Shown one piece after another: positions 6,501 through 52,076 of a stretch of 53,902 nucleotides of DNA; within the stretch, counting starts at the first letter, position 1, and each line of letters opens with the position of its first letter. Under the pieces are notes generated by a model. That model did no database searches. It worked only from the letters and a program-made list of their open reading frames with translations, and had not been told where the DNA came from. Where the stretch lies: contig CADACD010000015.1 in NCBI GenBank assembly GCA_902786365.1, positions 1 to 53,902 on the forward strand, written 5' to 3'. This DNA comes from an uncultured Lachnospiraceae bacterium. GTDB taxonomy: Bacteria > Bacillota > Clostridia > Lachnospirales > Lachnospiraceae. Both the position numbers and the translations under genes were made by a program.

Positions 6501-9500
6501 CATATTCTCCTTTCGTTATTGTCTCTTCATCCACCACAAGGCTTTCTTTTCGAATTTTTTTCCACACTTCTTCCGGTTTATCCTTATATAAAAGTCTATA
6601 CTTTGCTCCACTTAAATTTTTATCAAATCCACATACAGATTTGTACTCACAATATTCACACGCAGTTTTTTCGTTAGAGCCGGCTTTCATATATGGATTA
6701 ATATCAATATCCCCGTCAAGTATTTCCTTTCCGAACTCGCCTGTCTTTTCGTGAACAAAATCAATCATACATTTTATTGAGAGACTATCAGCCTTGGTTG
6801 AACTACTCTTAAATGCTCCTTTTTTTGTATATCCAATTGGTATATACATTGAGTCGCCGCCATTTGCTTTGACACTCTCAATGGTACTATCAAATGCTCT
6901 TATCACATTTTCATCATCATTTACAATTCCATTTACTTTCTGACTTTTTAGAACTGCTTCATCGACAACTTTCTTAAATTCCTCTTCACTTTCCCATTTT
7001 TTTAAATCTTCTTCTTTGATAACAGGGTCATCAATGTTGTAATAAAACATTCCGGCAGGTATAATATTTTTTCCCGGATATTTCTTTTTAGTATGTTCAA
7101 GTGCTGCCTCCATATAAATTATCAGCTGTAGCTGAAGTCCGTTATATACATCATTAATCTCGAATTTTTTTGTTCCCGATTTGTAATCAATAATCTTGAC
7201 ATAAATATCATCTTTATCTTTATAATAGTCAATTCTGTCAATAATTCCACGAAGCCCCATCTGTGCACCATCATCATACACATATTTCATTTCATCAAGC
7301 CCACTGTTTGATGAAAATCTCATCTCAAATTCCGATGGGATAAAATCTCCTGCATTTATCTGCTGCTGCAAAATCCAGACTGTTTTGTCAGAAACCTTTT
7401 TTATCTTTTCAAGCATGTAAGCATTTCTTCCGTTGTCATGAAATACTCCTGCCTCATTGACTGCTGCTTCTGATACACTCTCACTAATCAGCAGCCGCCT
7501 CAGCTCATCATCTATCTTATCAAATGACAGTTTTCTCTCTCTCACCTTTTTAAAGAATAATTCAATTGCACTGTGATAGACATTTCCTATATCATTTTTT
7601 CTGACACCAAATTCCTTTCTCTCCACAAGCTGCAAGCCATACGTCAGGAAATGCCTGTAAGCACATGACGCAAAGGTTTCAAGCCTTGAAACACTGTTGA
7701 AAAGATTTTCCCCATATAAAGCCCTTGCAACTGCCTTGTCAAGTTTCGAACTTTTTACAGAATAAGCGGCGGCATTAATAAGTGGTTTCATATCAATCCC
7801 GTTTTTCGCACACATTGTATATAACTCGCAGAATGTCTTTTTCTCTTCTTCTCTCATTCTTCCCGAAATGAAATCATAGATATTTTTTGAAACATAGGAA
7901 ACTGCTGATTTTATATTTGTAATATTCTTTGGCAGACTTTCCCTTTCTGCCTTTGCCTCATCAATGACTTCTATATTTTCAAACATAGAAGCAACTGTTG
8001 TCACAATATATGACTGTCTTTTTGAGGTACCGTCTGCCCCGCTTCGCTTGAATGAAATATGTAGTTGATCGGACATCTTTGTCAGCATGAGATACAGATA
8101 AAATTTTTGTATGAACGCATTTTCCCTCACTGTAGGTGATAATTCAACACCATTTTCATATAAAAAATTTCTCTCTTCTCTTGTAAGAACTCCTCCTCCT
8201 GCATCCGATTTTGGAATAATTCCATCATTCGCACCAATCAGAAACAATACTTTTACATGATTAAGTCTTGTTCTCTCTGTATCTCCAACCACAACCCTGT
8301 CAAGTGTCGGTGGTACAAGACCTACCTTGATATCTTCAAATCCTGAATCAAGCATTGCAAGCAGTTCATTTGCATTGACCTTTTCATCCCCTGTCAGAAA
8401 AACAGTCTTATCAAACAGCTCCATCACAAGACCATATGTCTGTTTAAATTCATTTCCTCTTGATATATCCCCCTCATCGTAAAAATGCTTTGTAATGATT
8501 TCCAATTTATTTTCTATATCAAGTCTGATGACAAGATTGCAAAGTGCGGTAATGGCATCCTTTACAGGTATTCTCCTTTGTACCTTAAACGCCTCATACG
8601 TCTCAAAAATATCCTCTACTACTTTCTGTCTTGCAATCTCATATTCTTCTCTTTCCTCTTCAATCGGTGTAGTCCATTTTTTCTTTCCCTTTATCCCATG
8701 TGAAATCACATAATTTTCAAGTAAATCTATCTGCGTTCTTGAAAGTCCTGACATGCCACACCTTAAATATCTGAAAACACTTTCATAAGAAAAATTATCT
8801 GAAATAATCTCAAGGACTGCTCTTATGGTCTCTACCATCGGATTGGCAATCACGCTTCTCTTAAAATCCACAAAACACGGAATATCATGCTTTTCAAATA
8901 TTTCTGTGATATATCTGTTATATCCTTCCATATCAGCAGTCACAACTGCAATATCTTTATATCTGTAATTTTCACATCTTACAAGGCGGCTGATGGTATA
9001 AGCGACATATTCTGCTTCCGAAATGGGATTGTCACATATATGTATACTGATATGTTGATTCTGGTGTTTATCTGTTTTAATGTTATCCGGATTGTTATCT
9101 GCTTCTGCCCGATATGGCTTTACCCCATACTTAAATAAATTTCTTTCAAGATATGATATCATGCCATTGTCTTTAAACCTGTGTGGCTTCGTCAATATGA
9201 TGTCACTGTAAACTGATACATTTTCTTCTCTTGCAATCGTCTTCAATCTGTTAATCGTCTTGATACTTAAGCTAAAAATATCCGCATCATTTTCCTTTGT
9301 ATAATCAACTACATCTGCATCTCTAAGCGTAATTGTCACATAGACATCTTTCGCATATTTTAACAACTGTCTTATCACTTCATATTGAACAGGTGAAAAT
9401 CCGGTATACTCATCAAAAGTAATATAGCTGTCTTTCATAATCTTTGAATTTCCTATCAGCGTACACACCTTCTGCAAAAGCTCCTCATTAATGATAAACT

Positions 9501-10047
9501 TGTCATTTAAATATTCCTTTAACTTTTCTGATATCAGCTTAATATCTTTCAGCTTTGCATATAAAAGCGGACGCTTTTTTGCATTTTCCATCATCTTATC
9601 AAACTTGTCATTTGTGATTCCGTACTGATATAATTCACTAATCATTGATTTCATTTCTTCTATAAATCCAGCCATTCCTGCCTTTGAGCCAAACACTGTG
9701 AATTTTTCCTTATTCTCTTCTATGATTTTTCTAAGTATCAGACATTTTCCCGTATCATCTAATACTTTTAATGTGCTAAGGCCTGCTTCATTGAAAATAC
9801 GTTTTGCAAGTCTGTCAAAACTGACGATATCAATGTTCATTGTTCCTTGGGTTTCAGACAAATCTACGATTGTTTTTTGTGTCTCCATCGTAAACTGCTC
9901 TGGCACTATAGCATAGCATTTTGTTGTTTGTGATGTTTTTTCTTTCAGTTTTCCTGATGACTCATCAAGACTGTGCTGCAATAATTTCGTGTACATAAGG
10001 TGCGATTTTCCGGTTCCGCTTCCGCCTATGATTAATTGTAATCCCAT
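6484..10047 (-). CDS. addB: ATP-dependent helicase/nuclease subunit B
   Basis: AddB is the partner of AddA. It has an N-terminal inactivated-helicase fold that scans for Chi, and a C-terminal nuclease stabilised by a 4Fe-4S cluster. Visible features are Walker A GGSGTGKS about ten residues in, the late nuclease sequence VKIIDYKSGTKKF, and the iron-sulphur cysteines: one in FASCAYRHF and three in CEYCEYKSVC near the C-terminus. I choose the ATG at 10047 (1187 aa, normal length). The frame stays open to 10158, but that upstream part contains a strong promoter (10102-10131), and homologous proteins begin with the Walker A strand. The spacing to the nearest purine-rich AAAGG is rather long (13 bases). 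It overlaps addA by about 17 bases. Confidence 0.95.
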   Translation of the reverse strand: MGLQLIIGGSGTGKSHLMYTKLLQHSLDESSGKLKEKTSQTTKCYAIVPEQFTMETQKTIVDLSETQGTMNIDIVSFDRLAKRIFNEAGLSTLKVLDDTGKCLILRKIIEENKEKFTVFGSKAGMAGFIEEMKSMISELYQYGITNDKFDKMMENAKKRPLLYAKLKDIKLISEKLKEYLNDKFIINEELLQKVCTLIGNSKIMKDSYITFDEYTGFSPVQYEVIRQLLKYAKDVYVTITLRDADVVDYTKENDADIFSLSIKTINRLKTIAREENVSVYSDIILTKPHRFKDNGMISYLERNLFKYGVKPYRAEADNNPDNIKTDKHQNQHISIHICDNPISEAEYVAYTISRLVRCENYRYKDIAVVTADMEGYNRYITEIFEKHDIPCFVDFKRSVIANPMVETIRAVLEIISDNFSYESVFRYLRCGMSGLSRTQIDLLENYVISHGIKGKKKWTTPIEEEREEYEIARQKVVEDIFETYEAFKVQRRIPVKDAITALCNLVIRLDIENKLEIITKHFYDEGDISRGNEFKQTYGLVMELFDKTVFLTGDEKVNANELLAMLDSGFEDIKVGLVPPTLDRVVVGDTERTRLNHVKVLFLIGANDGIIPKSDAGGGVLTREERNFLYENGVELSPTVRENAFIQKFYLYLMLTKMSDQLHISFKRSGADGTSKRQSYIVTTVASMFENIEVIDEAKAERESLPKNITNIKSAVSYVSKNIYDFISGRMREEEKKTFCELYTMCAKNGIDMKPLINAAAYSVKSSKLDKAVARALYGENLFNSVSRLETFASCAYRHFLTYGLQLVERKEFGVRKNDIGNVYHSAIELFFKKVRERKLSFDKIDDELRRLLISESVSEAAVNEAGVFHDNGRNAYMLEKIKKVSDKTVWILQQQINAGDFIPSEFEMRFSSNSGLDEMKYVYDDGAQMGLRGIIDRIDYYKDKDDIYVKIIDYKSGTKKFEINDVYNGLQLQLIIYMEAALEHTKKKYPGKNIIPAGMFYYNIDDPVIKEEDLKKWESEEEFKKVVDEAVLKSQKVNGIVNDDENVIRAFDSTIESVKANGGDSMYIPIGYTKKGAFKSSSTKADSLSIKCMIDFVHEKTGEFGKEILDGDIDINPYMKAGSNEKTACEYCEYKSVCGFDKNLSGAKYRLLYKDKPEEVWKKIRKESLVVDEETITKGEYDGNMD

Positions 10048-10101
10048 TTTATTTCTTATACCTTTCCATGCATCATATTTGCCGTTTTTACCTAAGTATA
10101 T

Positions 10102-10131
10102 ATTATAACGATTATCCGTTATAATAGTCAA
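10102..10131 (-). promoter_or_regulatory. addBA promoter with internal palindrome
   Basis: On the minus strand -35 TTGACT (10126-10131) and -10 TATAAT (10102-10107) are 18 bases apart. The spacer plus -10 contain a perfect inverted repeat with 9-bp arms: ATTATAACG at 10102-10110 and CGTTATAAT at 10117-10125, with a 6-bp centre. A protein bound here would block RNA polymerase. It does not match the LexA consensus I know for Firmicutes (GAACN4GTTC type). Confidence 0.6.
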
Positions 10132-10229
10132 CATTATTTCTCTCATATAACATTCCAAAAATTTTAGTCATATTCCTGCTCACCCCCGAATATATATAAT
10201 TATAATTAATAAAGGTGAGGCAAGGCAAA

Positions 10230-10970
10230 ATGAGTAAAAATCCAAAAATTGTGGTATTTAAACTGAAAGAATTAATATATACCGGCATATTTATCCTTCT
10301 TGGTATATTACTAATAATCTTACTGGTGTGGATGTTTAAGTCTGGCAAAACCAAAGACACTCCTGCATCAAACACCCCTGTCAATACAAATACAGCAGAC
10401 AATAACAGCTTTAGCGCTGCTTCTGACAATTCAGATATCAGTGCAGCCAACAAAACGACAAACAACGAATCCACCGGAAATTCTTCTGCTAACGAAGGTA
10501 CGACAGGTTCTTCTACAGGCGAAGGAACGACCGGCAATTCTACCACAAATGAAGGTGAAGGAACGACCAGCAATTCTACCACAAATGAAGGTGAAGAAAC
10601 TACCGGCAATAGTGAATCCACTACCAGTTATTCATCAGGCTCTGACACCGAAAAACAGACACATAAAAATACATCTGGAAAAAAATATTCACCGGGTGTA
10701 TATACAACAGCGCTGATGTTAAATAACAGTGCTCTTGAAATAGAAGTCTGTGTTGACTCCACTAAAATCACTTCTATTTCTATTAAAAATATGGATACAG
10801 GAATTAAAACCATGTATCCACTTATTGAAAATTCTATGAAAGACTTGGAGTACCAGATTGTAACATCCCAGTCACTTGAAAATATTACATATACTGATGA
10901 CTGCAAATACACATATCTGATACTGATTGACGGCGTATCCCAGGCATTATCAAAGGCAGAATTAAAATAA
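10230..10970 (+). CDS. Membrane-anchored protein with Ser/Thr-rich linker and FMN-binding-like domain
   Basis: 246-aa surface protein of unknown role. Residues 1-16 are basic, 17-35 form a single strongly hydrophobic segment (signal anchor), and about 40-150 are a low-complexity Ser/Thr/Asn/Glu/Gly linker with near-exact repeats built on TTNEGE. The C-terminal 90 residues form a compact alpha/beta domain that begins with SPGVYTT. It resembles the FMN-binding/RnfG-like domain as I remember it from clostridial proteins, but the flavinylation motif (S/TGAT) is absent. I place the start at the ATG at 10230 because AAGGTGAGG precedes it by about ten bases; an upstream GTG at 10215 falls inside that site. 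The stop codon overlaps the tail of the convergent kinase gene by 9 bp. The domain call is tentative. Confidence 0.72.
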   Translation: MSKNPKIVVFKLKELIYTGIFILLGILLIILLVWMFKSGKTKDTPASNTPVNTNTADNNSFSAASDNSDISAANKTTNNESTGNSSANEGTTGSSTGEGTTGNSTTNEGEGTTSNSTTNEGEETTGNSESTTSYSSGSDTEKQTHKNTSGKKYSPGVYTTALMLNNSALEIEVCVDSTKITSISIKNMDTGIKTMYPLIENSMKDLEYQIVTSQSLENITYTDDCKYTYLILIDGVSQALSKAELK

Positions 10971-11978
10971 TTCAACCTTAATCACAAAGAAATCATCCTC
11001 TATTTCTGCCTTGATATTTCCTTTCATTTTGATGACCATGTCGCGTGCTATAGCCAGCCCCAGACCTGTGGAGTTCTGGCTGCGCGACTTGTCAGCTTTG
11101 TAAAATCGTTCAAACACCCTGTCAATATCTACCTCATCATTTTTAATATAATTTTCTCCTAAATCATTTTTGATAATAATAACAATTCCGTTTTTATTTA
11201 AATTTTTATCTAAATTTATGTTTGAACTTTCTATCAAATTTTCCCCTACAGTTTCATCATGATTTCCTGCCGGACAATGAACCATCTTCAACTCAAATTT
11301 CTCATTTCCATGCTCAATTGAATTTTTAATGATATTCTCAAACACTCTCCTAAAAGCAAGTTTATTAAGCTTCATAGATACAGCCTCATCGGGCACTTCT
11401 ACTTTCGGTTCAATCCCTCTTTTATGAAACACTTCATAAAATTCGATAAGTGTACTGCATAATTCCTTGCACACATCAAACTCTTCATAATCAAATTGAT
11501 ACTCGTCATTCTGTAATTTTACATAGGTAAATAACTGCTCGAGCATTTCCTTTAAGCAGTCAATCCTTTCTTTGATAATCTGTACATATCTTTCGTATTC
11601 TTTCTCATCCTCTGCCTGACCAAGCAGTTCAAAATATCCATTCAAAGAAGTCAGTGGCGTTCTGATATCGTGCGAAATATTGGTAACTATCTCCCTAAGC
11701 TTTAAATCTTTCTCATTAATTTTGATTTTCTCATTCTTAAAATTTTCAAGAAAGTCATTTAAAGTATCCACCAATTCATCAATTTCTTTTGAACCGATAT
11801 CCTTTGTAATCTCAAGATTGGAATTATTTTCATTTAGAAAACGGATTTGGCGACAGATTGATTTCACCTGCCGCTTGTATAAAATTAATGCGATTGTATT
11901 GAAAAATGCAACTGTCATGCTTATCACACAAATTAACTTCAAAAACATATATCTATCCTTCCTGTCGATTAACATCAT
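10962..11978 (-). CDS. Sensor histidine kinase of an ABC-transporter-linked two-component system
   Basis: 338-aa membrane kinase. One clear transmembrane helix lies at residues 11-32, followed by a HAMP-like linker, the dimerisation/phosphoacceptor domain with NISHDIRTPLTSLNGY (phosphorylated His) around residue 105, and an ATPase domain with N-box NIIKNSIEHG and G2 box TGLGLAIA. There is almost no extracellular part, like the intramembrane-sensing kinases that detect antibiotics or peptides through a partner ABC transporter. The ATG overlaps the end of the upstream permease gene by 4 bp (coupling), with AGAAGG just upstream. The likely partner is the response regulator at 14912-15625, separated from it by the three transporter genes. 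Confidence 0.9.
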   Translation of the reverse strand: MMLIDRKDRYMFLKLICVISMTVAFFNTIALILYKRQVKSICRQIRFLNENNSNLEITKDIGSKEIDELVDTLNDFLENFKNEKIKINEKDLKLREIVTNISHDIRTPLTSLNGYFELLGQAEDEKEYERYVQIIKERIDCLKEMLEQLFTYVKLQNDEYQFDYEEFDVCKELCSTLIEFYEVFHKRGIEPKVEVPDEAVSMKLNKLAFRRVFENIIKNSIEHGNEKFELKMVHCPAGNHDETVGENLIESSNINLDKNLNKNGIVIIIKNDLGENYIKNDEVDIDRVFERFYKADKSRSQNSTGLGLAIARDMVIKMKGNIKAEIEDDFFVIKVELF

Positions 11979-12838
11979 ACATCCTTCTTACTAATGACAA
12001 TATTGGCAAGAACCATAAAAATCACCAGCCAGACAATCCCTAATCCAATCGTTTTTAAATGCACATTCATACTGTCACTTGCAGTAATAGAAAGACTTCT
12101 GTGAATAATTAAATATTTCATCATCACATTTGCATTTGCTCCTAATGCACCTTTTGCAAAGACATAAAGAAATACTTCAAACACCCCAAATATCATAAAC
12201 ATACTGATAAGAATTGTGATGACTTTACTCCTTGTCAGATTGGCAAGAAAAATCATCACTGAAGTAATTCCCATAACCAGAACTGCCTGTACTGCAATAT
12301 ATATCAATATATTTTCTACATTTCCAATTTTAGCATCTCCAAAGAAATCTGTAAATTTTATTGTAATAATAAACATCAAAATTCCAATCAGATTTTCAAT
12401 CAAAAATATGATGAAAGTATTGGCAATTTTTGAGACATTCGCATACCATCTGTGTTTTGGTATTGTGATAGTATTTTTGATAAAGCCTGTCGAAAAATCA
12501 TTACATATCAGAACAATCGCCACAAGTGTAACGATAAACACTAAAAATCCTCCATTATACAAAGTCTCTACACATGATAAAAGACTTCCCTTGTTTCGCA
12601 CAGCATCTGCAGTATCTACATGCATCCCCAGATTCATTTTCATATCCTCTTCTTTGTCCTCCATTGATACCATAATTCCTGCAGAACCGGTACGACTGCT
12701 GTTTTCACTGCTGTATTTCAACTGATCCTTAATCTCATAAATCGTCAATCCATTGAGCAATACAAAAAATATTGTAGCAAAAATGAGCATATTACTCTTA
12801 ACACTTTTCAAAAAATCCATCTTAATATAATTCAACAT
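11975..12838 (-). CDS. ABC-2 type permease (second of pair)
   Basis: 287-aa integral membrane protein with about six transmembrane helices: one at 17-36, a long extracellular loop to about 95, then five more. It ends in NIVISKKDV. It is a clear paralogue of the neighbouring permease: both share the N-terminal pattern ML-YIKMDxxK, the FICNDFS-GxIKNTITIP segment before the third helix, and the C-terminal ANI(I/V)-KxD tail. Paired permeases of this kind with one BcrA-type ATPase form exporters that protect against lantibiotics and other cell-envelope peptides. The substrate here is not shown by the sequence. It is translationally coupled to the downstream kinase. Confidence 0.88.
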   Translation of the reverse strand: MLNYIKMDFLKSVKSNMLIFATIFFVLLNGLTIYEIKDQLKYSSENSSRTGSAGIMVSMEDKEEDMKMNLGMHVDTADAVRNKGSLLSCVETLYNGGFLVFIVTLVAIVLICNDFSTGFIKNTITIPKHRWYANVSKIANTFIIFLIENLIGILMFIITIKFTDFFGDAKIGNVENILIYIAVQAVLVMGITSVMIFLANLTRSKVITILISMFMIFGVFEVFLYVFAKGALGANANVMMKYLIIHRSLSITASDSMNVHLKTIGLGIVWLVIFMVLANIVISKKDV

Positions 12839-12936
12839 CTATTATTACCCTTTCCATCACTTTCCATTGTACAGAATCTATCATTGTATCCATAACATGA
12901 TTTCTCCATAAAAATCATATTATGCTTTCGTATTCA

Positions 12937-13788
12937 TTAGTAATCCCTCTTACAGACGATAATATTAGCAAGCGTCATATACACAAACATTGATGCAATT
13001 CCCAAAACCAGCGATTCTTTTAATACTGTATTTGACATTCCCACCATCAGATTTCCCTGTGTAACAGAAATAACCATTTTCATTGCCTTTTCTGTTTTTA
13101 AATCAAATACCTTGTACAATATAAAAACTGCCATTGTTCCGATAAGCTGGCATGCGTAAAATACACTGACAGAAATTCCCAATGCTTTGCTCTGTGTCCA
13201 ATCGCATATCAACAGAAAAAATGCCGTGATTCCAAGATATAATACCATCTCTACTGCAAGATATGGTATCAGACCTTTGAAAGAACCTACTACTCCACTC
13301 CTAAAACAATACTTTATCGCCCACAGATAGGCGATAATCGCAATCAGATTTTGAACCATTAAAATCACCGCTGCTGTCACAAGTTTTGAAATATTTGTAT
13401 ACCATTTATATCTCGGAATGGTAATGGTATTCTTTATGTAACCACAGGAAAAATCGTTACATATAAATATAACAATCGTAATAAGTAACATCAGAACCAT
13501 AATGTTGCTGCCATATGATGCATTTACGAGATTTTTTAGATTGATTCCAAGTTCTACAATCGCAAACCCATCACTTCCAATTCCTGATGTATAAAATGTA
13601 TCATCTGCGTAATGCGTTTCTTCTGCTTCAGCTATGCTTATCTGGGATTTATCAGACAAAACTTCTCTCTCTGCCCATTTTGTATCAACTATCACAAATA
13701 TAATCAAAACTAAAAACACCAGCATACAAACATAGAAAAATTTGCTTTTGAATAATTTATATAAATCCATTTTAATATATTTCAACAT
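12937..13788 (-). CDS. ABC-2 type permease (first of pair)
   Basis: 283-aa membrane protein with about six predicted helices, paralogous to the next gene downstream. The two probably form a heterodimeric channel with the ATPase encoded nine bases upstream. The extracellular loop after helix 1 (about residues 35-80) is acidic and unlike that of its paralogue, so the two subunits may have diverged in ligand contact. AGGAATGAG precedes the ATG. A gap of 98 bases separates it from the second permease and holds no obvious terminator. By context it is assigned to the lantibiotic/bacitracin-protection class; the true substrate is unknown. Confidence 0.88.
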   Translation of the reverse strand: MLKYIKMDLYKLFKSKFFYVCMLVFLVLIIFVIVDTKWAEREVLSDKSQISIAEAEETHYADDTFYTSGIGSDGFAIVELGINLKNLVNASYGSNIMVLMLLITIVIFICNDFSCGYIKNTITIPRYKWYTNISKLVTAAVILMVQNLIAIIAYLWAIKYCFRSGVVGSFKGLIPYLAVEMVLYLGITAFFLLICDWTQSKALGISVSVFYACQLIGTMAVFILYKVFDLKTEKAMKMVISVTQGNLMVGMSNTVLKESLVLGIASMFVYMTLANIIVCKRDY

Positions 13789-13797
13789 ATCTCATTC

Positions 13798-14742
13798 CTA
13801 CCTTCCTGTAATATCAATGAAGTAATCCTCAAGTCCTTCACTGTTGAGTGATATCGAATCTACATCTATATCATTTTTGATAAGAATTTTATTAATTTCT
13901 TTTAATTCATTCAATTTTTCATAGATATGAATTGTATTTTTATCAACAACTTTATAATTACTGATTCCCATCTTTTCTATCACAGTTGAAGCTTTGTCAG
14001 GATTATCTGTCTTTACTTCTATTCTTTCAAGGCATTTTTCTCTTAACTTTTCGCTTGAAATTTCCTCAATCAGTTCCCCATCTTTGACAATTCCATAATG
14101 TGTCACAAGTTTTGACAACTCCTCCAAGATATGACTGGAGATAAGGATTGTGATATTCTTCTCCCGATTCAGTTTGATGAGCAGTTCTCTAATCTCCAAA
14201 ATTCCCTGAGGGTCAAGTCCGTTAATCGGCTCATCAAGAATCAATACATCAGGAGAACCTAAGAGTGCAAGACCAATGCCGAGTCTCTGTTTCATACCGA
14301 GTGAAAACTTTTTGGCGTGTTTTTTTCCGACACTTTCAAGTCCCACCAGTTTTAATATCTCATTGATTTTCTCCTTGTAACCACTGATTCCAAGACAGAT
14401 TGCTTTGCATTTCATATTGTCGTATGCACTCATTCCCGGAAAAACACCCGGATTTTCAATCAACGTTCCAAGCCTTCTGTACGTCATATTTTCTCCTGCA
14501 TTTTCTCCAAAAATCTGTATTTCTCCCTCTGTCGGCCTTGCAAGCCCGCATATCATTCTCATGATAGTTGTTTTACCTGCACCATTTTTCCCAATCAGTC
14601 CGTAGATGGCACCCTTCTTTATATGCATATTCACTCCCTTGACTGCATAACTGCTTTTAAAATTCTTTCCAAATTTCTTTGTGAGATTATTCGTCTCTAT
14701 CACATATTCGATATTTTTATTACTGATAATATCTGACTTCAT
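13798..14742 (-). CDS. ABC transporter ATP-binding protein, BcrA/lantibiotic-protection type
   Basis: 314-aa ATPase. It shows Walker A GKNGAGKTT, the Q-loop region LIENPGVFPGMSAYDN, signature SLGMKQRLG, Walker B VLILDEPINGLDP and the H-loop SSHILEEL. The C-terminal 90 residues form the accessory domain seen in the BcrA/drug-efflux subfamily. I place the start at 14742 because GAGGT lies seven bases upstream; an ATG at 14766 in the same frame has no such site. It powers the two permeases encoded immediately downstream. A strong terminator separates it from the response regulator gene upstream, so the transporter genes probably have their own promoter or depend on readthrough. Confidence 0.93.
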   Translation of the reverse strand: MKSDIISNKNIEYVIETNNLTKKFGKNFKSSYAVKGVNMHIKKGAIYGLIGKNGAGKTTIMRMICGLARPTEGEIQIFGENAGENMTYRRLGTLIENPGVFPGMSAYDNMKCKAICLGISGYKEKINEILKLVGLESVGKKHAKKFSLGMKQRLGIGLALLGSPDVLILDEPINGLDPQGILEIRELLIKLNREKNITILISSHILEELSKLVTHYGIVKDGELIEEISSEKLREKCLERIEVKTDNPDKASTVIEKMGISNYKVVDKNTIHIYEKLNELKEINKILIKNDIDVDSISLNSEGLEDYFIDITGR

Positions 14743-14839
14743 ATTTTTACCTCTTTTCTCTTTCATGACTAAAGATAATACTAAACTTTCCGGTTAAATT
14801 AAACGCAAATAAAAGTTTAAGAAATGGTAAAGAAATGTA

Positions 14840-14879
14840 AAAAGACCACCTCTCACCCAATCGTAAGATGTGGTCTTTT
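14840..14879 (-). terminator. Terminator between response regulator and transporter genes
   Basis: Perfect 10-bp stem AAAAGACCAC (14840-14849) / GTGGTCTTTT (14870-14879) with a 20-base loop. Read on the minus strand it ends in TTTTT. It follows the response regulator gene and precedes the ABC genes. It is symmetric enough to work in either direction. Confidence 0.8.
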
Positions 14880-14911
14880 AATCGATGTTTGTTATATTTG
14901 TGCAATCAAAA

Positions 14912-15625
14912 TCAGCACATTTTAAAACCAATCCCCCATACTGTTTCGATATAATCACGCTTCGTATACTTCTTTATCTTTCCTCTGATATTGCTTATAT
15001 GTACATTGATTGTTTTATCTGCTCCTATGTAATATTCATCCCATGCATAGTCATATATGTCCTGCTTGGTAAATACCTTATTCGGATATGACATTAATAA
15101 CTCCAGTATCTTAAACTCCTGCCTTGTAAGTGAAATCACATTACCGCTCACTTTTACTTCATAATTTTTTTTATTGATTGTAAGCTCTTTATAAGAAATC
15201 AGTGCATCCCCTTCTTTACTGTCAGCTATATTTTCACTATTATCAGTGACATGATCATTTTTTAACCTGCTTCTTCTAAGACACACTGCCACTCGTGCTT
15301 CCAACTCCTTTATCTCAAAAGGCTTTGTAATATAATCATCCGCCCCCATAGCCAGCACATCAACTTTCGTATCAAGTTCATCCTTTGCTGAAACAACAAT
15401 GACGGGTATATCTTCTTTCTCTCTTATCTTACTAAGTACTTCTTCACCGTTTAGTCCCGGAAGCATCAGATCTAATATTAAAAGGTGAAAATTTTCTATA
15501 CGCAGTGCAAGTAATGCCTCTGAACCGGAAAATGCCTGTGTACAGTCATAATTTTTCTTTCTAAGTGCTTCTTTGATAAGATGATTGATATTGACATCAT
15601 CTTCAACAATTAATATTTTTTCCAT
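14912..15625 (-). CDS. OmpR/PhoB-family response regulator
   Basis: 237-aa DNA-binding regulator. The receiver domain (1-120) has acidic residues in VEDDVN, the phosphorylated Asp in LILDLMLPGLNGEE, and the KPFEIKELEARV segment. The C-terminal winged helix (about 140-237) contains SLTRQEFKILELLMSYPNKVFTK-type helices (quoted in part) and VHISNIRGKI. It heads the locus that ends in the sensor kinase at 10962-11978 and most likely activates the ABC genes between them. AAGGAG precedes the ATG. A -10-like TATAAT lies at 15660-15665 without a good -35, which is compatible with an activated promoter. Confidence 0.93.
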   Translation of the reverse strand: MEKILIVEDDVNINHLIKEALRKKNYDCTQAFSGSEALLALRIENFHLLILDLMLPGLNGEEVLSKIREKEDIPVIVVSAKDELDTKVDVLAMGADDYITKPFEIKELEARVAVCLRRSRLKNDHVTDNSENIADSKEGDALISYKELTINKKNYEVKVSGNVISLTRQEFKILELLMSYPNKVFTKQDIYDYAWDEYYIGADKTINVHISNIRGKIKKYTKRDYIETVWGIGFKMC

Positions 15626-15700
15626 TTATTTTCTCCTTAGCTAAATAAGCATGTATATTATTATATCATTCGATTCACCATTTTAAAAGAAAAATATAAA

Positions 15701-15756
15701 TTCTCGCAGGAATCAGCGAAATAAATTATCTTATTCATTCCACTGACCTGCGAGAA
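15701..15756 (-). terminator. Terminator at the end of the spoVA operon
   Basis: Perfect 10-bp stem TTCTCGCAGG (15701-15710) / CCTGCGAGAA (15747-15756), extended inward by CAG/CTG pairing and followed on the minus strand by a T-rich run. It lies 16 bases past the last gene of the spoVA cluster. Confidence 0.7.
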
Positions 15757-15771
15757 GTAACTTTTAAAAAT

Positions 15772-16116
15772 CTAATTATTGTTCACAAACAAAATCAATC
15801 CATGCATTTTTAACATTTTAAAAAACATCGCTGCCCTTTGTTTTGCAAACTCTCTTTCCTCACCAAGTTCCCTCATGATTTCCTCAGCAATATCTCTTAT
15901 GGTTTTATGACCATCGATTTTTTTCCATACAATACTTCCGTACCCGTCTAATTCAAGTTGCCTCTCTTTTGGTTCACTAAAATTTTTTAATCCCATCTTT
16001 TGTACAAATCCTTTTCTTTTTGTATTTATTACAATTCTGTCATTTGCTCCTGTAATCCATAAATTATCATTATTTATCATCGGTATTAAGTCCAAATAGC
16101 TTTTTTTTAACATCAT
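15772..16116 (-). CDS. PqqD-like small protein at the end of the spoVA operon
   Basis: 114-aa protein. Residues 55-105 match the PqqD winged-helix fold as I know it: LDGYGSIVWKKIDGHKTIRD followed by a helix and a hydrophobic final strand (HGLILFV). PqqD-like domains usually bind a leader peptide for a radical-SAM or other maturation enzyme, but no such enzyme or precursor peptide is visible nearby. The ATG at 16116 is chosen because GGAGG lies six bases upstream; the frame also opens at a TTG (16146) without a site. Its position 36 bases after spoVAE and before the operon terminator suggests co-expression in the forespore. Its role in sporulation is an inference. Confidence 0.75.
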   Translation of the reverse strand: MMLKKSYLDLIPMINNDNLWITGANDRIVINTKRKGFVQKMGLKNFSEPKERQLELDGYGSIVWKKIDGHKTIRDIAEEIMRELGEEREFAKQRAAMFFKMLKMHGLILFVNNN

Positions 16117-16152
16117 CCATTTCCTCCATACCTTTGATTTTGACAAAAATGA

Positions 16153-16509
16153 TTACCCTTGCATTTTTGATTTAAAAAACAATGAACCAATAAATCCGAA
16201 AATAAGTGCACCTGATATACCAACTGCACTTGCCTTTAATCCACCCATAAAGATTCCTAAGAGTCCATCACTGTCGACTGCCTCTTTGACACCTTTCATA
16301 AGTGTGTTTCCAAAACCAACTAATGGTACACTGGCTCCTGCTCCCGCAAAATCTATGAACGGCTGGTATATTCCAAAAAATCCCAGAATTGTTCCAATCA
16401 CAACAAGACCTACCATGATTCTTCCCGGCATCAGTTTCGTCTTATCAATAAAAATCTGAACGAATGCACATATCACTCCACCTATCAAAAAAGCCTTTAA
16501 AAGTGCCAT
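16153..16509 (-). CDS. spoVAE: Stage V sporulation protein AE
   Basis: 118-aa membrane protein of the SpoVAEb type with three or four helices. The sequence has the family's glycine-rich segments, including GAGASVPLVGFGNTLMKGV and the GISGALIFGFIGSLFF tail. SpoVA proteins form the inner-membrane channel that imports dipicolinic acid into the forespore and releases it at germination. It is paralogous to SpoVAC, encoded two genes upstream (both carry GGA-SxVP-xGF). The gene lies 38 bases after spoVAD. Only one AE-type gene is present; there is no separate spoVAEa or spoVAF in this operon. The start codon is preceded by AGGAGGATAAG-like sequence. Confidence 0.93.
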   Translation of the reverse strand: MALLKAFLIGGVICAFVQIFIDKTKLMPGRIMVGLVVIGTILGFFGIYQPFIDFAGAGASVPLVGFGNTLMKGVKEAVDSDGLLGIFMGGLKASAVGISGALIFGFIGSLFFKSKMQG

Positions 16510-16547
16510 TTCTTATCCTCCTATTCTTCTACCTGAATTTGCGTTTT

Positions 16548-17594
16548 TTATCTTTCATTAACACCCTCGATTACTACTGCATGAGCAATTCCCGGAACAG
16601 ATTGTCCCTCATTGAAACTAACCGGAGAAAGCATTGCTCCCGTTGGAACAAATAAAACTTTCTTCCACTCATGATTCTTAATCTTATTGAGAATATGACC
16701 GCATAATACAGATGCAGAACAGCCACATCCACTTCCTCCTGCATGTGTATCCTGTTTTTCAGAGTCGAAGATTTCAATTCCACAATCCATATGATTTTTG
16801 CTGATATCAATATCAACTGCATTTAATAAATCAATCAGTATCTTCTGTCCGATATATCCTAAATCGCCTGTGATAATTTTGTCATATTCATTCACAGAAT
16901 ATCCAAAATCAGACAGATTTTTTTGAATTACATCTGCTGCTGCCGGTGCCATACAAGCTCCCATATTCATAGAATCTTTAACACCAAAATCAACAATTTT
17001 TCCGGTCGTTATACCTGTAATTTTGGCTTTGGCATTTTTTTCATTATTTTCATTTCCCTCTCCCAGCACTACTGCACCACAGCCTGTCACAGTCCATGTA
17101 GCGGAATAAGGGCGTTGGTTACCGTATTCAAGCGGAAATCTGAACGTCTTCTCTGCGCTTGCAAAATGACTTGACGCGAGAGAAATGACTTTATCCGCAT
17201 ATCCTCCTGCGATTGTCATTGCACCGAGAGAAAGTGATTCTCCCATAGTAGAACATGCTCCGTACAAACCAAAAAATGGGATTTCAAAATTAAGAAGTCC
17301 AAATGTTGAAGCAATGAGCTGTCCGAGTAAATCTCCTGCAAACATATATCTTATATCTGAACTTAAAAAGCCTGATTTTCTAAGAAGAAGTCTCACTGTC
17401 TTTTCCTGTAATGCACTTTCTGCCTTTTCCCATGTATCACATCCGAATAAATCATCCGCAGAACATTCGTCAAATTCATCTTTTAACGGTCCTTCACTTT
17501 CTTTTGTTCCGCATACACTTGCATATTCAAGAATATAAGGTGCTCTGCCAAACTGAATGCTCTGCTCTCCTAAAGGTTTATTTTTTACGCCCAT
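16548..17594 (-). CDS. spoVAD: Stage V sporulation protein AD
   Basis: 348-aa thiolase-fold protein that binds dipicolinic acid on the outer face of the spore inner membrane and works with the SpoVA channel. It has the family pattern: a glycine-rich YGACSTMGESLSLGAM segment, HAGGSGCGCSA around residue 285, and the C-terminal GAMLSPVSFNEGQSVPGIAHAV. Its length matches the usual 335-350. Its ATG lies inside the last codons of spoVAC (10-bp overlap), and the ribosome binding site GGAGGG is inside spoVAC, so translation is coupled. No signal peptide is present, as is normal for the family. Confidence 0.97.
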   Translation of the reverse strand: MGVKNKPLGEQSIQFGRAPYILEYASVCGTKESEGPLKDEFDECSADDLFGCDTWEKAESALQEKTVRLLLRKSGFLSSDIRYMFAGDLLGQLIASTFGLLNFEIPFFGLYGACSTMGESLSLGAMTIAGGYADKVISLASSHFASAEKTFRFPLEYGNQRPYSATWTVTGCGAVVLGEGNENNEKNAKAKITGITTGKIVDFGVKDSMNMGACMAPAAADVIQKNLSDFGYSVNEYDKIITGDLGYIGQKILIDLLNAVDIDISKNHMDCGIEIFDSEKQDTHAGGSGCGCSASVLCGHILNKIKNHEWKKVLFVPTGAMLSPVSFNEGQSVPGIAHAVVIEGVNER

Positions 17595-48771: not shown

Positions 48772-49200
48772 ATGAAATACTTAAAACAATTTGGAATTAT
48801 ATTATTCATTTCTTTTATAGGAGAAATTTTAAATCATCTTATTCCACTTCCGGTTCCGGCAAGTATCTATGGAATTGTCATTTTATTTTTATGCCTTGAG
48901 TTGAAGGTAATTAAACTTGATGATGTAAAAGATACAGGTAAATTTCTGATAGAAATCATGCCTGTCATGTTTATTCCTGCTGCTGCCGGTGTCATTGATG
49001 TATGGAGCATCATAAAGCCATCATGTTTCGAATATGTTGCCATTCTTATTATTTCTACAATCGCAGTGATGGCGGTATCAGGTCTTATGACACAATTTGT
49101 TGTCAGACTTACCGGTAAATCTTCTCTAACATCTGACAATAAACATAAACAGACAAACAATACGCAGACATCAAATAACGGAGGAAAAAAACATGGGTAA
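48772..49200 (+). CDS. lrgA: CidA/LrgA-family membrane protein
   Basis: 142-aa holin-like membrane protein with four helices (about 5-25, 30-47, 60-82, 87-110). It carries the family sequence LPLPVPASIYGIVILFLCL and FIPAAAGVIDVW. After the last helix comes a polar tail rich in Asn, Thr and Lys. LrgA/CidA proteins pair with LrgB/CidB; in Bacillus and Streptococcus mutans the pair works in pyruvate uptake, and in Staphylococcus it has been linked to control of autolysis. AAAGGA precedes the ATG. Its stop overlaps the lrgB start by 8 bases. Confidence 0.93.
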   Translation: MKYLKQFGIILFISFIGEILNHLIPLPVPASIYGIVILFLCLELKVIKLDDVKDTGKFLIEIMPVMFIPAAAGVIDVWSIIKPSCFEYVAILIISTIAVMAVSGLMTQFVVRLTGKSSLTSDNKHKQTNNTQTSNNGGKKHG

Positions 49201-49885
49201 TTTTTTGGAAAATTCAGTTTTCTTTGGAGTGACTATAAGTTTTATTTCATATGGATTGGGTGTATTTTTAAAGAATAAGTTTAAGCTTTCCATTTTTAAT
49301 CCACTGCTCATATCGATTATTACCACTATCGTCTTTCTTATAGCTACGGGTACCAGCTATGAAACGTATTATAATTCGGCAAAATATGTAAGCTATCTTC
49401 TTACCCCGGCCACTGTATGCCTGGCTATACCATTATATGAGCAAATTGAAATACTCAAAAAAAATCTTGCCGCAATTCTTGCCGGCATTGTATCAGGTGT
49501 TCTTACTTCGCTGTGCTGCATTTTAGCTATGGTCCTGCTATTTGATATGGACCACAAACAATATGTTTCTCTTCTTCCAAAATCTATTACTACTGCAATT
49601 GGAATGGGAGTATCAGAAGAACTCGGCGGCTATGTTGTCATCACAACTGCAATCATCATTATCACAGGTGTATTTGGAAATGTAATCGGAGAGCTTGTAT
49701 TGTATGTTTTTAGAATAAAAGAACCTGTTGCAAAAGGTATTGCACTCGGCACTGCTTCTCATGCAATCGGTACTGCAAAAGCAATGGAATTAGGTGAAAT
49801 AGAAGGAGCCCTAAGTAGCCTTTCTATTGTTGTTGCCGGTATAATCACTGTAGCCGGTGCTTCTTTATTTGCCAATATCATTTAA
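49193..49885 (+). CDS. lrgB: LrgB-family membrane protein
   Basis: 230-aa integral membrane protein with six or seven helices, the partner of LrgA. It has the family's central segments LLTPATVCLAIPLYEQ, LPKSITTAIGMGVSEELGG and GTASHAIGTAKAMELGEIEGALSSL (given here in parts GTASHAIGTA and AMELGEIEGALSS). Translation is coupled to lrgA: its ATG lies within the last codons, and GGAGG sits inside lrgA about seven bases upstream. A strong terminator follows. It probably forms the transport core with LrgA. Substrate assignment to pyruvate or a related acid is by analogy only. Confidence 0.95.
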   Translation: MGNFLENSVFFGVTISFISYGLGVFLKNKFKLSIFNPLLISIITTIVFLIATGTSYETYYNSAKYVSYLLTPATVCLAIPLYEQIEILKKNLAAILAGIVSGVLTSLCCILAMVLLFDMDHKQYVSLLPKSITTAIGMGVSEELGGYVVITTAIIIITGVFGNVIGELVLYVFRIKEPVAKGIALGTASHAIGTAKAMELGEIEGALSSLSIVVAGIITVAGASLFANII

Positions 49886-49911
49886 CAAAGTATCATTTTT
49901 TTAGTTAGCAT

Positions 49912-49967
49912 ATAGAATGATTAAATTTTATCAATCAAATAGATTAAATTTAATCATTCTATTTTTT
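49912..49967 (+). terminator. Terminator after lrgAB
   Basis: A 17-bp perfect stem (49912-49928 with 49946-49962, arms starting ATAGAATGA and ending TCATTCTAT) and a 17-base loop, followed by TTTTT. The stem is AT-rich but long. Confidence 0.82.
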
Positions 49968-50016
49968 ACTATATAGTGTTAAAATATCATCATTAAAATT
50001 GATAAAATTTAATATC
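49919..50016. repeat. Three copies of a GATTAAATTTWATCA-type element before leuA
   Basis: GATTAAATTTTATCAAT at 49919-49935, GATTAAATTTAATCATT at 49942-49958 and, inverted, ATTGATAAAATTTAAT at 49998-50013. The first and third are exact reverse complements over 16 bases, and the first two also form the lrgAB terminator. They end just before the leuA -35 box. The spacing suggests operator sites, possibly for the AraC-type domain fused to LeuA; binding is an inference. Confidence 0.5.
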
Positions 50017-50018
50017 TA

Positions 50019-50047
50019 TTGATTTTTTTTGTATGAAATGACATTAT
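50019..50047 (+). promoter_or_regulatory. Candidate leuA promoter
   Basis: -35 TTGATT (50019-50024), a 17-base spacer and -10 CATTAT (50042-50047), with a predicted start near 50054 and a leader of only about 28 bases. No attenuator or T-box fits in such a leader, so control must act at initiation or on the enzyme. Confidence 0.55.
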
Positions 50048-50081
50048 CATTGATTTTCAAAATAAAGATTGGAGGATTTTT

Positions 50082-52076
50082 ATGAAAAATGTTGATAAAT
50101 ATATAAGACAATATTTCATGCCACCTGTGTGTGAATATGACTGGGTAAAAAAAGACCATATTGAGAAAGCACCTATCTGGTGTTCTGTTGACTTAAGAGA
50201 TGGTAATCAGGCATTAATCGAGCCGATGGGACTTGATGAAAAACTTGAATTTTTTAAGATGCTTGTCGATATCGGTTTTAAAGAAATTGAAGTCGGATTT
50301 CCTGCCGCTTCTGAAACAGAATTTACTTTTATGAGAACACTGATTGAAAGAAACATGATTCCTGATGATGTCACTGTTCAGGTACTGACGCAGGCAAGAG
50401 AACATATCATCAAAAAAACTTTTGAAGCTGTGAAAGGTGCTCCGCGCGCAGTCATCCATCTGTACAATTCAACATCTGTTGCACAGAGAGAGCAGGTATT
50501 TAAAAAGAATAAAGAAGAAATTAAGAAACTGGCTGTGGAGGGTGCAAAGTTATTAAAAGAACTTGCTGATGAAACTGATGGCAACTTTTCATTTGAATAC
50601 AGTCCTGAAAGTTTTCATGGCACAGAGGTCGAATATGCACTTGAAGTCTGCAACGCTGTTCTTGATGTATGGCAGCCTGAAAAAGAGCGAAAATCCATCA
50701 TCAATATTCCTGCCACTGTTGAGACAGCCATGCCACATGTTTTTGCAACCCAGATTGAATATATCAGCAAAAATCTGAAATACAGGGATAATGTAATCCT
50801 CAGCCTTCATCCACACAATGACAGAGGATGTGGTGTCAGTGATGCGGAGCTTGGATTACTTGCCGGTGCGGACAGAATTGAGGGAACATTATTTGGAAAT
50901 GGAGAGCGAACAGGTAATGTTGATATCATCACAATAGCAATGAATCTTTTTTCCTACGGAACGGATCCCGAACTTAATTTTTCTAATATGCCGGAAATTC
51001 GTGAAAAGTATGAACGTTTAACACAGATGCATGTCCATGAAAGACAGCCATATGCCGGAGACCTTGTATTTACTGCATTTTCTGGTTCACATCAAGATGC
51101 GATAGCAAAAGGCATGAATTTACGTGAGGAAAATCAGTCTGAAAAATGGACTGTTCCTTATCTTCCTATCGATCCGGTTGATGTTGGAAGAACATACGAT
51201 GCAGATGTCATCAGAATCAACAGCCAGTCCGGCAAAGGCGGAATCGCGTACATCCTGAAACAGAATTTTTCCATTTCTGTACCAAATGGAATGAAGGAAG
51301 AAATCGGCTATACTGTAAAGCAGGTATCTGATGAGGAGCATAAAGAATTATCACCACAGTGGGTTTATGAAATATTTGAAGAAAATTATATCCATCATAT
51401 GCCAAATTTCCATATCAGCGAATGTCATTTCAGCCAGACAAACGGTATTATGGCAGAGTCAACAATTGTATGTGGTGAGAAAAAAACAATAGTAGATGCA
51501 AATGGAAACGGAAGACTTGACGCTGTCAGCAATACGATAAAACAGTATTTTGGCATCAGTTATGAATTGTCTGTTTATGAAGAACATGCATTATCGAGAG
51601 GTTCTTCTTCAAAGGCAATGGCATATGTCGGCATACACTGTGACGGAAAAGCCTACTGGGGAGCTGGAATTGATGAAGATATCATCAAGGCTTCTATCGA
51701 TGCTTTGGTTGTAGCAGTCAATAAGCTTCCACAGGTACAAAATGACAAAAAAATCAAAGATGACCGTCTGATAGAAATGATTAATTATATTCAGGCAAAT
51801 TTCAAAACCATCACACTTGATGATATGGCAGAACATTTTCATTTATCTACACCTTATATTTCAAAATATATTAAAGATAAGTCAGGTAAGACATTCGGTG
51901 AGCATGTGACACAGATAAAAATGAAAAAAGCAAAGACATTACTGAAAAACGGAAATATGACTGTTGAAAATATTTCCGAGGCAGTCGGCTATCCAAATGT
52001 TGAACATTTTATCAGAACATTCAAGAAAATATTTGATATGACACCGATACAGTACAGAAACCAGAGTCAGGCATAA
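50082..52076 (+). CDS. leuA: 2-isopropylmalate synthase fused to a C-terminal AraC-type DNA-binding domain
   Basis: 664-aa fusion. Residues 1-555 are a complete type 2 2-isopropylmalate synthase, the first committed step of leucine synthesis (acetyl-CoA plus 2-oxoisovalerate). The catalytic barrel has metal Asp in [25 protein letters not shown] and [14 protein letters not shown], and the LeuA dimer/allosteric domain lies at about 430-555. Residues 560-664 are a full AraC/XylS double helix-turn-helix: [20 protein letters not shown], then the signature with [20 protein letters not shown] and the closing DMTPIQYRN. The frame is uninterrupted and GGAGG lies seven bases before the ATG. Such a fusion of a biosynthetic enzyme to a transcription factor is unusual and suggests a leucine-sensing regulator; regulation itself is inferred. 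Confidence 0.95.

Follow-up and report, generated by a model that had tools for sequence, protein, structure and literature searches.

A 2-isopropylmalate synthase fused to an AraC-type DNA-binding domain in Lachnospiraceae, with a predicted AraC-like operator upstream of its gene

The window analysed here, a stretch of 53,902 nucleotides from an uncultured Lachnospiraceae bacterium (GenBank assembly GCA_902786365.1, contig CADACD010000015.1), harbors a gene in which a complete 2-isopropylmalate synthase (LeuA) and a complete AraC-type double helix-turn-helix (HTH) are joined in one frame, preceded by a predicted operator of AraC-like layout. Based on comparison with related genes and genomes, we propose, with a probability of roughly 0.6, that this feedback-inhibited LeuA also activates its own promoter and, in some species, those of leuCD, leuB-ilvD-ilvB or ilvBN-ilvE, and that leucine ends this activation, so that one protein probably makes leucine and sets the level of the pathway. 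Binding of the HTH to the site, activation as opposed to repression, and leucine as the signal are all points that we infer from sequence comparison. A sequence-only reading of the window had suggested that leucine binding to such a protein could also switch transcription; the regulatory part of this idea has gained strong comparative support, as the AraC-like site tracks the HTH and recurs before leuC, leuB-ilvD-ilvB and ilvBN-ilvE in some fusion genomes, and the leucine switch itself stays a proposal.

The coding sequence starts with an ATG at 50082 and runs as a single open frame of 664 aa without internal stop up to the stop codon ending at 52076. Annotation using Pfam and NCBIfam together with a residue alignment to LeuA of Mycobacterium tuberculosis led to the following features:

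50082..52076, + strand: leuA-HTH, 2-isopropylmalate synthase with AraC-type DNA-binding domain (open frame, Pfam, NCBIfam)
50172..51005, + strand: catalytic TIM-barrel, HMGL-like, residues 31-308 (Pfam; residue alignment to M. tuberculosis LeuA)
51060..51260, + strand: IPMS_D2 linker subdomain, residues 327-393, with the equivalents of H379 and Y410 (Pfam, alignment)
51348..51728, + strand: LeuA_dimer, leucine-binding regulatory domain, residues 423-549 (Pfam, alignment; leucine-site residues as given in the accessible text of PMC2704214)
51768..52064, + strand: AraC-type double HTH, residues 563-661, with HTH_18 at 582-661 (Pfam; conservation in 88 homologues; dN/dS)

The three domains of a LeuA, namely HMGL-like (E 5.4e-69), IPMS_D2 (E 2.6e-34), and LeuA_dimer (E 2.5e-23), were all detected by Pfam in the expected order, and the best NCBIfam model was PRK03739.1 for 2-isopropylmalate synthase (residues 6-548, 808.6 bits against a cut-off of 455). 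In the tail, HTH_18 was matched over model positions 1-80 of 80 (E 2.8e-19; 69.6 bits, cut-off 33.6), and HTH_AraC was found above its cut-off at residues 622-660 (model positions 2-42 of 42). The cupin-like ligand domain, which is usual but not defining for the AraC/XylS family, gave no Pfam match in this protein, and LeuA stands in its place. These family matches and the 664 uninterrupted codons bear out the initial description of a complete LeuA with its allosteric domain followed by a complete AraC-type double HTH. Among solved structures, the best relatives were M. tuberculosis LeuA (enzyme part) and AraC-type proteins (tail). An AlphaFold2 model built from 40 aligned fusions (mean pLDDT 80.4, pTM 0.62), which informs on the domain folds and not on the placement of the HTH, revealed a tail made of helices, and M. 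tuberculosis LeuA was top-ranked when this model was used in Foldseek.

At the residue level, the equivalents of R80, D81, E218, H285, H287, E309, G320, N321, H379, and Y410 of M. tuberculosis LeuA are all identical in the protein of the window and do not vary among the 88 fusions or the 22 HTH-less relatives compared; R80 and E218 we take to be among the catalytic or substrate positions. The accessible text of PMC2704214 gives D81, H285, H287, N321, E309, and G320 as substrate residues, describes the roles of H379 and Y410, places L535, A536, V551, Y554, A558, A565, and A567 around the leucine site, and reports that mutation at the positions of G531, G533, and A536 abolishes feedback in yeast. 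In this pocket, the window protein agrees with M. tuberculosis LeuA at G531, G533, L535, Y554, A558, and A567, and differs at A536 (D), V551 (L), and A565 (S), while the equivalents of G531, G533, Y554, and A567 are invariant in all 88 fusions. Since the HTH-less relatives, too, mostly have D, L, and S at these three positions (16/22, 17/22, and 19/22, respectively), they are not marks of the fusion. Judged by these alignments, the leucine pocket is largely kept in the fusions, and the enzyme looks functional, i.e., like a working, leucine-inhibitable 2-isopropylmalate synthase. In one genome estimated to be 95 % complete (G216), the fusion was the only match at E<=0.001 and is therefore probably its only LeuA. 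The genome of the window harbors a second LeuA, which is HTH-less and 52 % identical; its gene (in L038, G000 C6, region around 8288-16756) lies beside genes that resemble, by eye and from their translations, surface-polysaccharide genes, and perhaps encodes a specialised 2-isopropylmalate synthase.

In regard to its distribution, a search for LeuA proteins with a C-terminal HTH, as proposed with the first description, revealed that the fusion is widespread in the Lachnospiraceae, where at least 89 of 397 sampled genomes of the family carry it at full length, counted as a single match extending past residue 656 of the query. We extracted 88 fusions as open frames of 661-676 aa; this set is without those of G214, which was not taken, and G163, which runs off its contig. 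Within the genus of the window, the fusion occurs in four of nine genomes, and full-length copies were also found in the named isolates Roseburia porci, Lachnobacterium bovis DSM 14045, and Eubacterium uniforme ATCC 35992, the first two belonging to the Lachnospiraceae according to the NCBI taxonomy. At the level of the order (392 genomes), all full-length fusions among the matches listed belong to the same family, and at the level of the phylum (398 genomes) the sole full-length fusion outside it was found in G990 (family f145; L363), where fusion and site may be due to transfer or contamination. A search of named genomes resulted in at least 585 relatives among at least 595 stretches; 80 named stretches were kept, of which 65 bear the name of Lachnospiraceae or of genera placed there, 4 that of Eubacterium, and 11 other names, and Ruminobacter, Muribaculaceae, and Mailhella among these 11 were taken for misnamed bins. 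The number of full-length fusions in the family, together with the named isolates, rules out an artefact of chance, misassembly, or frameshift. A stop or frameshift between LeuA and HTH, which had been put forward as speaking against a true fusion, was encountered in two genomes, which are exceptions: in G061 (L110) and G078 (L124), a stop separates the two parts and the HTH follows in another frame, the sequence examined from G078 ending inside the HTH. These are either real splits or assembly errors.

Typical binding sites of AraC-type proteins are direct repeats that lie beside the promoter with a spacing of about two helical turns, and in class II activation the edge of the site lies at -35. 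Upstream of the fusion, expectation maximisation over up to 300 bp before 87 of the 88 fusion genes revealed a motif of 36 bp, estimated to be borne by 80 % of the sequences. A matrix of this motif and R1, a sequence-only site model built from 57 sites, were then available for scanning, and the following elements were predicted in the window:

49921..49956, + strand: predicted upstream operator, 36-bp direct repeat with a period of 22-23 bp (matrix 32.6 bits; R1 29.4 bits, E 2.3e-6)
49977..49985, + strand: predicted extended -10, TG then TAAAAT (read from the sequence; 56 bp from the operator start)
49980..50015, + strand: second, weaker copy of the site over the -10 and the expected transcription start (matrix 20.6 bits; 59 bp from the first site)

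Self-similarity of the motif peaked when it was shifted by 22 bp (18.6) or 23 bp (18.5; next 13.8), which makes it a direct repeat with units about two turns apart. Among 72 aligned promoters, 49 displayed an extended -10 (TGnTAnnnT) exactly 56 bp from the start of the motif, and this fixed spacing puts the -35 position at the downstream edge of the motif. A second, weaker copy was detected further downstream in 24 of the 72 promoters, in 17 of those 24 at a distance of 73-75 bp, corresponding to seven helical turns. Though detected in only a third of the promoters, this copy suggests an AraC-like change in occupancy. The region 49900-50060, which had been named beforehand as the place to look for DNA binding, indeed contains both the conserved AraC-like predicted site and its weaker copy. 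Directly upstream of the operator, the window carries an lrgA-lrgB pair (48772-49885; LrgA and LrgB families). The neighbours of the fusion differ, by eye, among 17 other genomes or loci, by which an explanation through a shared operon or neighbour was ruled out.

As to how such a protein might work, we propose that an AraC-type domain was acquired as a C-terminal extension of the regulatory domain of LeuA, and that the LeuA dimer would put its AraC-type domains on the 36-bp direct repeat, the promoter-proximal half of which abuts the -35. Like AraC in class II activation, the fusion would activate its own promoter, with leuCD, leuB-ilvD-ilvB, or ilvBN-ilvE as further targets in some species; activation is assumed because the site is placed as for AraC at araBAD, where this placement goes along with activation. 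When leucine is scarce, the unliganded enzyme would activate, and with leucine in the LeuA_dimer pocket, the same change by which catalysis is inhibited would be expected to stop activation too, perhaps because the protein then moves to the second site, at the transcription start. A more specific version, in which a single leucine-binding event both inhibits catalysis and moves the dimer from the -35 site to the start-site copy, so that the enzyme of the committed step would also be the sensor and the transcription switch of its own gene (and of leuCD and ilv genes in some species), in place of the T-box logic of HTH-less relatives or in addition to it, is more tentative, and we give it somewhat less than even odds.

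Sites away from the fusion bear on the reach of this proposed regulation. In the first 25 genomes, R1 gave four matches above 25 bits outside the fusion locus, three of them before leuB-ilvD-ilvB (G341), ilvBN-ilvE (G191), and leuC-leuD (G207), with LeuB, IlvD, IlvB, IlvN, IlvE, LeuC, and LeuD at those loci all identified by NCBIfam above cut-off. In the genus of the last one (g207), a site of the same layout lies just before leuC in 13 of 17 fusion genomes (18.7 to 36.4 bits), i.e., in G207 and in 12 of 16 others, leuC being recognised by its family model in G207 and elsewhere by its conserved start. The site on the leuC side in this genus often overlaps the end of the preceding gene, and alignment of the 13 leuC promoters showed that the site, the extended -10, and a downstream TTGA element are kept and much else is variable. 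The trans regulon, as predicted from these sites, is thus clear in one genus and otherwise consists of single cases. In the genome of the window, the R1 scan revealed no strong site beyond its own leuA promoter, and the 403 bp upstream of its leuB-ilvD-ilvB operon contained none, so that only autoregulation is predicted there.

Some further matches were recorded in these scans. In G191 (L200 4584-5612), a site of 26.0 bits lies 432 bp before a gene similar to bile acid:sodium symporters, though below the cut-off of that family (235.5 against 326.3 bits), which possibly encodes a keto acid transporter of the same regulon. Matches of 18-24 bits away from leucine genes were mostly found at unrelated genes and not counted as targets. 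Weak ones occurred at the S10 ribosomal operon in G691, G535, and G623 and at a TrpE-like gene in G665 (by eye); in three genomes of one genus (L354, L356, L362), matches scoring 18-19 bits lie some 260-300 bp ahead of the S10 operon and may be due to chance.

The T-box string GGTACCGC was present upstream of 14 of 19 HTH-less genes versus 15 of 90 genes with an HTH, 14 of the latter 15 possessing the AraC-like site as well. While no T-box or other known RNA leader was found in the window at Rfam thresholds, Rfam T-boxes were detected in eight of nine sources tested, comprising six of seven distinct fusion loci plus one HTH-less locus. In the simplest reading, the fused HTH took over, or was layered onto, the leucine signal given by the T-box in relatives. 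The alternative that survives best accepts the same enzyme-regulator and assigns it a signal other than leucine, be it 2-ketoisovalerate, acetyl-CoA, 2-isopropylmalate, turnover, or ligand-free autoregulation. There is a precedent in yeast Leu3, which is switched by 2-isopropylmalate, and conservation of the entire enzyme, not of the leucine pocket alone, as well as the three pocket positions unlike those of M. tuberculosis LeuA, would fit such a signal. However, the HTH follows immediately on the domain that binds leucine, the pocket of which is mostly kept, and the T-box string, a sign of control by leucine status, stands at most HTH-less leuA genes, so that we regard another signal as unlikely, if deserving of attention.

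The proposed control by the fused protein itself draws on the association of site and HTH. Of 90 leuA genes with an HTH (88 fused, 2 split), 82 had a site above 14 bits within 1 kb upstream, as opposed to none of 19 HTH-less relatives, for which 509-613 bp upstream were covered; within about 510 bp, the count for HTH-bearing genes is 78 of 90. One of the eight HTH-bearing genes lacking such a site had only 47 bp upstream. The HTH-less set consists of high-scoring LeuA rows below the fusions, 20 of which were taken and G078 then removed as a split fusion; scanning the whole genomes of the remaining 19 with R1 revealed no site at E<=0.01, and among three further HTH-less genomes G284 had a match of 19.8 bits, located on another contig than its leuA. 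At E<=0.003, R1 sites were detected in 57 of 72 fusion genomes (71 full ones and G163, cut by its contig end; 56 on the contig of the fusion, that of G156 elsewhere) versus one of 72 family controls, which we chose from lower best LeuA scores, together with G157 (known to be HTH-less), and took as fusion-free by those scores. The first R1 scan at the same threshold had given 16 of 18 fusion genomes versus none of five without fusion. Another 30 fusion genomes, 29 of them outside the training of the model, yielded 26 with a site on the fusion's contig at E<=0.01, and a site above 14 bits was present in 60 of 66 named loci labelled as new and with at least 200 bp upstream, one of which (L236) lies on a contig that also supplied a training locus. 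Conversely, 15/72, 2/18, and 4/30 fusion genomes in these scans had no R1 match, and 6/66 named loci had none above 14 bits. As the site model was trained on fusion promoters, counts on those promoters lean towards the site; moreover, site and HTH share ancestry, and the shuffle control for the site counts preserves single-base content only. The site of G078 reached 25.5 bits by matrix and only 15.9 by R1, and the fusion of G990 from another family is accompanied by a site of 41.5 bits. That the motif is generic AT-rich promoter sequence was ruled out by the control genomes and the HTH-less relatives. A degenerate 19-mer with three mismatches was dropped as too loose (329 matches versus 149 for its control).

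A quick tree of 114 LeuA cores, with 42 open forks among its 111 inner branches, placed the HTH-less L119, L120, L121, L123, L125, and L131 among the fusions. Its supported branches require at least seven label changes for the fusion group and at least five for the HTH-less group. Five independent pairs differing in the HTH could be formed on supported branches; the site changed in the same direction in 4.6 of them on average and in the opposite direction in none, giving a median p of 0.0625, the least possible with five pairs. The common ancestry of site and HTH and the small number of independent pairs, as well as the fusion genomes with no detectable site, leave some room for an alternative in which the site belongs to another regulator of the leucine pathway, the fused HTH has another role, and the two travel together by descent only. 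Against this stand the site counts in HTH-less relatives (0/19) and controls (1/72), even though six HTH-less rows sit among the fusions, both split genes (G061 and G078), which retain the upstream site, the occurrence of fusion plus site in another family, and the 22-23 bp direct repeat at -35, which suits an AraC-type protein; furthermore, as gene neighbourhoods vary by eye in the 17 loci, no neighbouring regulator follows the site. We consider a separate regulator quite improbable.

Across the 88 fusions, the mean frequency of the commonest residue is 0.742 in the HTH, 0.733 in LeuA_dimer, and 0.865 in the catalytic domain. Residues of both HTH motifs are conserved across homologues, and among 136 close pairs examined, those with usable dS (29 for the HTH, 48 for the catalytic, and 55 for the dimer domain) had median dN/dS values of 0.021, 0.024, and 0.048, respectively, the pairs being non-independent and dS near saturation (median about 1.8). 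Of a loss of key recognition-helix residues among homologues, named at the outset as speaking against the idea, the conserved motif residues and the low HTH dN/dS give no sign. A vestigial or structural tail without such a role, as might be suspected since the splits in two genomes and the five or more changes of the HTH-less label on supported branches make the HTH look dispensable in some lineages, is very hard to reconcile with low dN/dS, constant length, conserved residues in both motifs, and a co-occurring predicted operator, and we deem it the least probable explanation.

To our knowledge, transcription regulators that are enzymes at the same time make up a small and scattered group. In the fusion, this dual role would extend through a whole family of bacteria common in gut and rumen and would fall to a textbook example of a feedback enzyme. 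With an operator and a small regulon predicted, and with the DNA-binding part naturally lost or split off in places, the question of how a feedback-inhibited enzyme turns into a regulator becomes directly testable. The fusion also yields a prediction for the control of leucine synthesis in bacteria whose HTH-less relatives bear T-box signatures at leuA in most cases (14/19). If the more specific version of the proposal is true, a single leucine event would set both levels of feedback.

Compared to known systems, M. tuberculosis LeuA (1sr9/3fig, PRK03739 subfamily) shares the enzyme domains, the catalytic positions, and most positions of the leucine site, whereas the fusion adds a C-terminal AraC-type domain of about 100 residues and a predicted operator before the gene. 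With the AraC/XylS family it has in common the complete double HTH and, measured against the operator layout of AraC itself, a predicted direct repeat of 22-23 bp at -35 with a second site in some promoters; its sensor, however, would be a whole N-terminal biosynthetic enzyme instead of a cupin-like ligand domain. An unfused counterpart, or a possible precursor of the fusion, was found in G692 (L300), where an HTH-less leuA is followed 4 bp on by a separate AraC gene:

leuA ending at 4628 and AraC gene at 3574-4623 of L300, - strand: the latter with HTH_18 and AraC_binding (Pfam)

Its HTH resembles the fused one, but here there are two proteins, the AraC protein having its own AraC_binding domain plus HTH_18, and an R1 scan of this genome at E<=0.01 revealed no site. 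Ada, a DNA repair methyltransferase, likewise contains an AraC-type HTH within the same polypeptide and regulates its own gene, but is a repair enzyme switched by covalent self-methylation. BirA, PutA, and NadR are trigger enzymes, in which a metabolic enzyme and a DNA-binding domain in one chain control their own pathway, though enzymes, DNA-binding folds, and pathways all differ from those of the fusion. Of the likeness to PutA and BirA drawn by the sequence-only reading, the architecture stands, as enzyme and DNA-binding domain were found in one chain by Pfam, while the regulon of its own pathway is a prediction from sites. The same reading knew of no described case for LeuA, and we likewise found no earlier description of an AraC-fused LeuA in the open-access literature, as covered by titles and the starts of abstracts. 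Enzyme-regulators as a kind are thus already known, and what is new here is LeuA as the putative sensor together with its probable operator.
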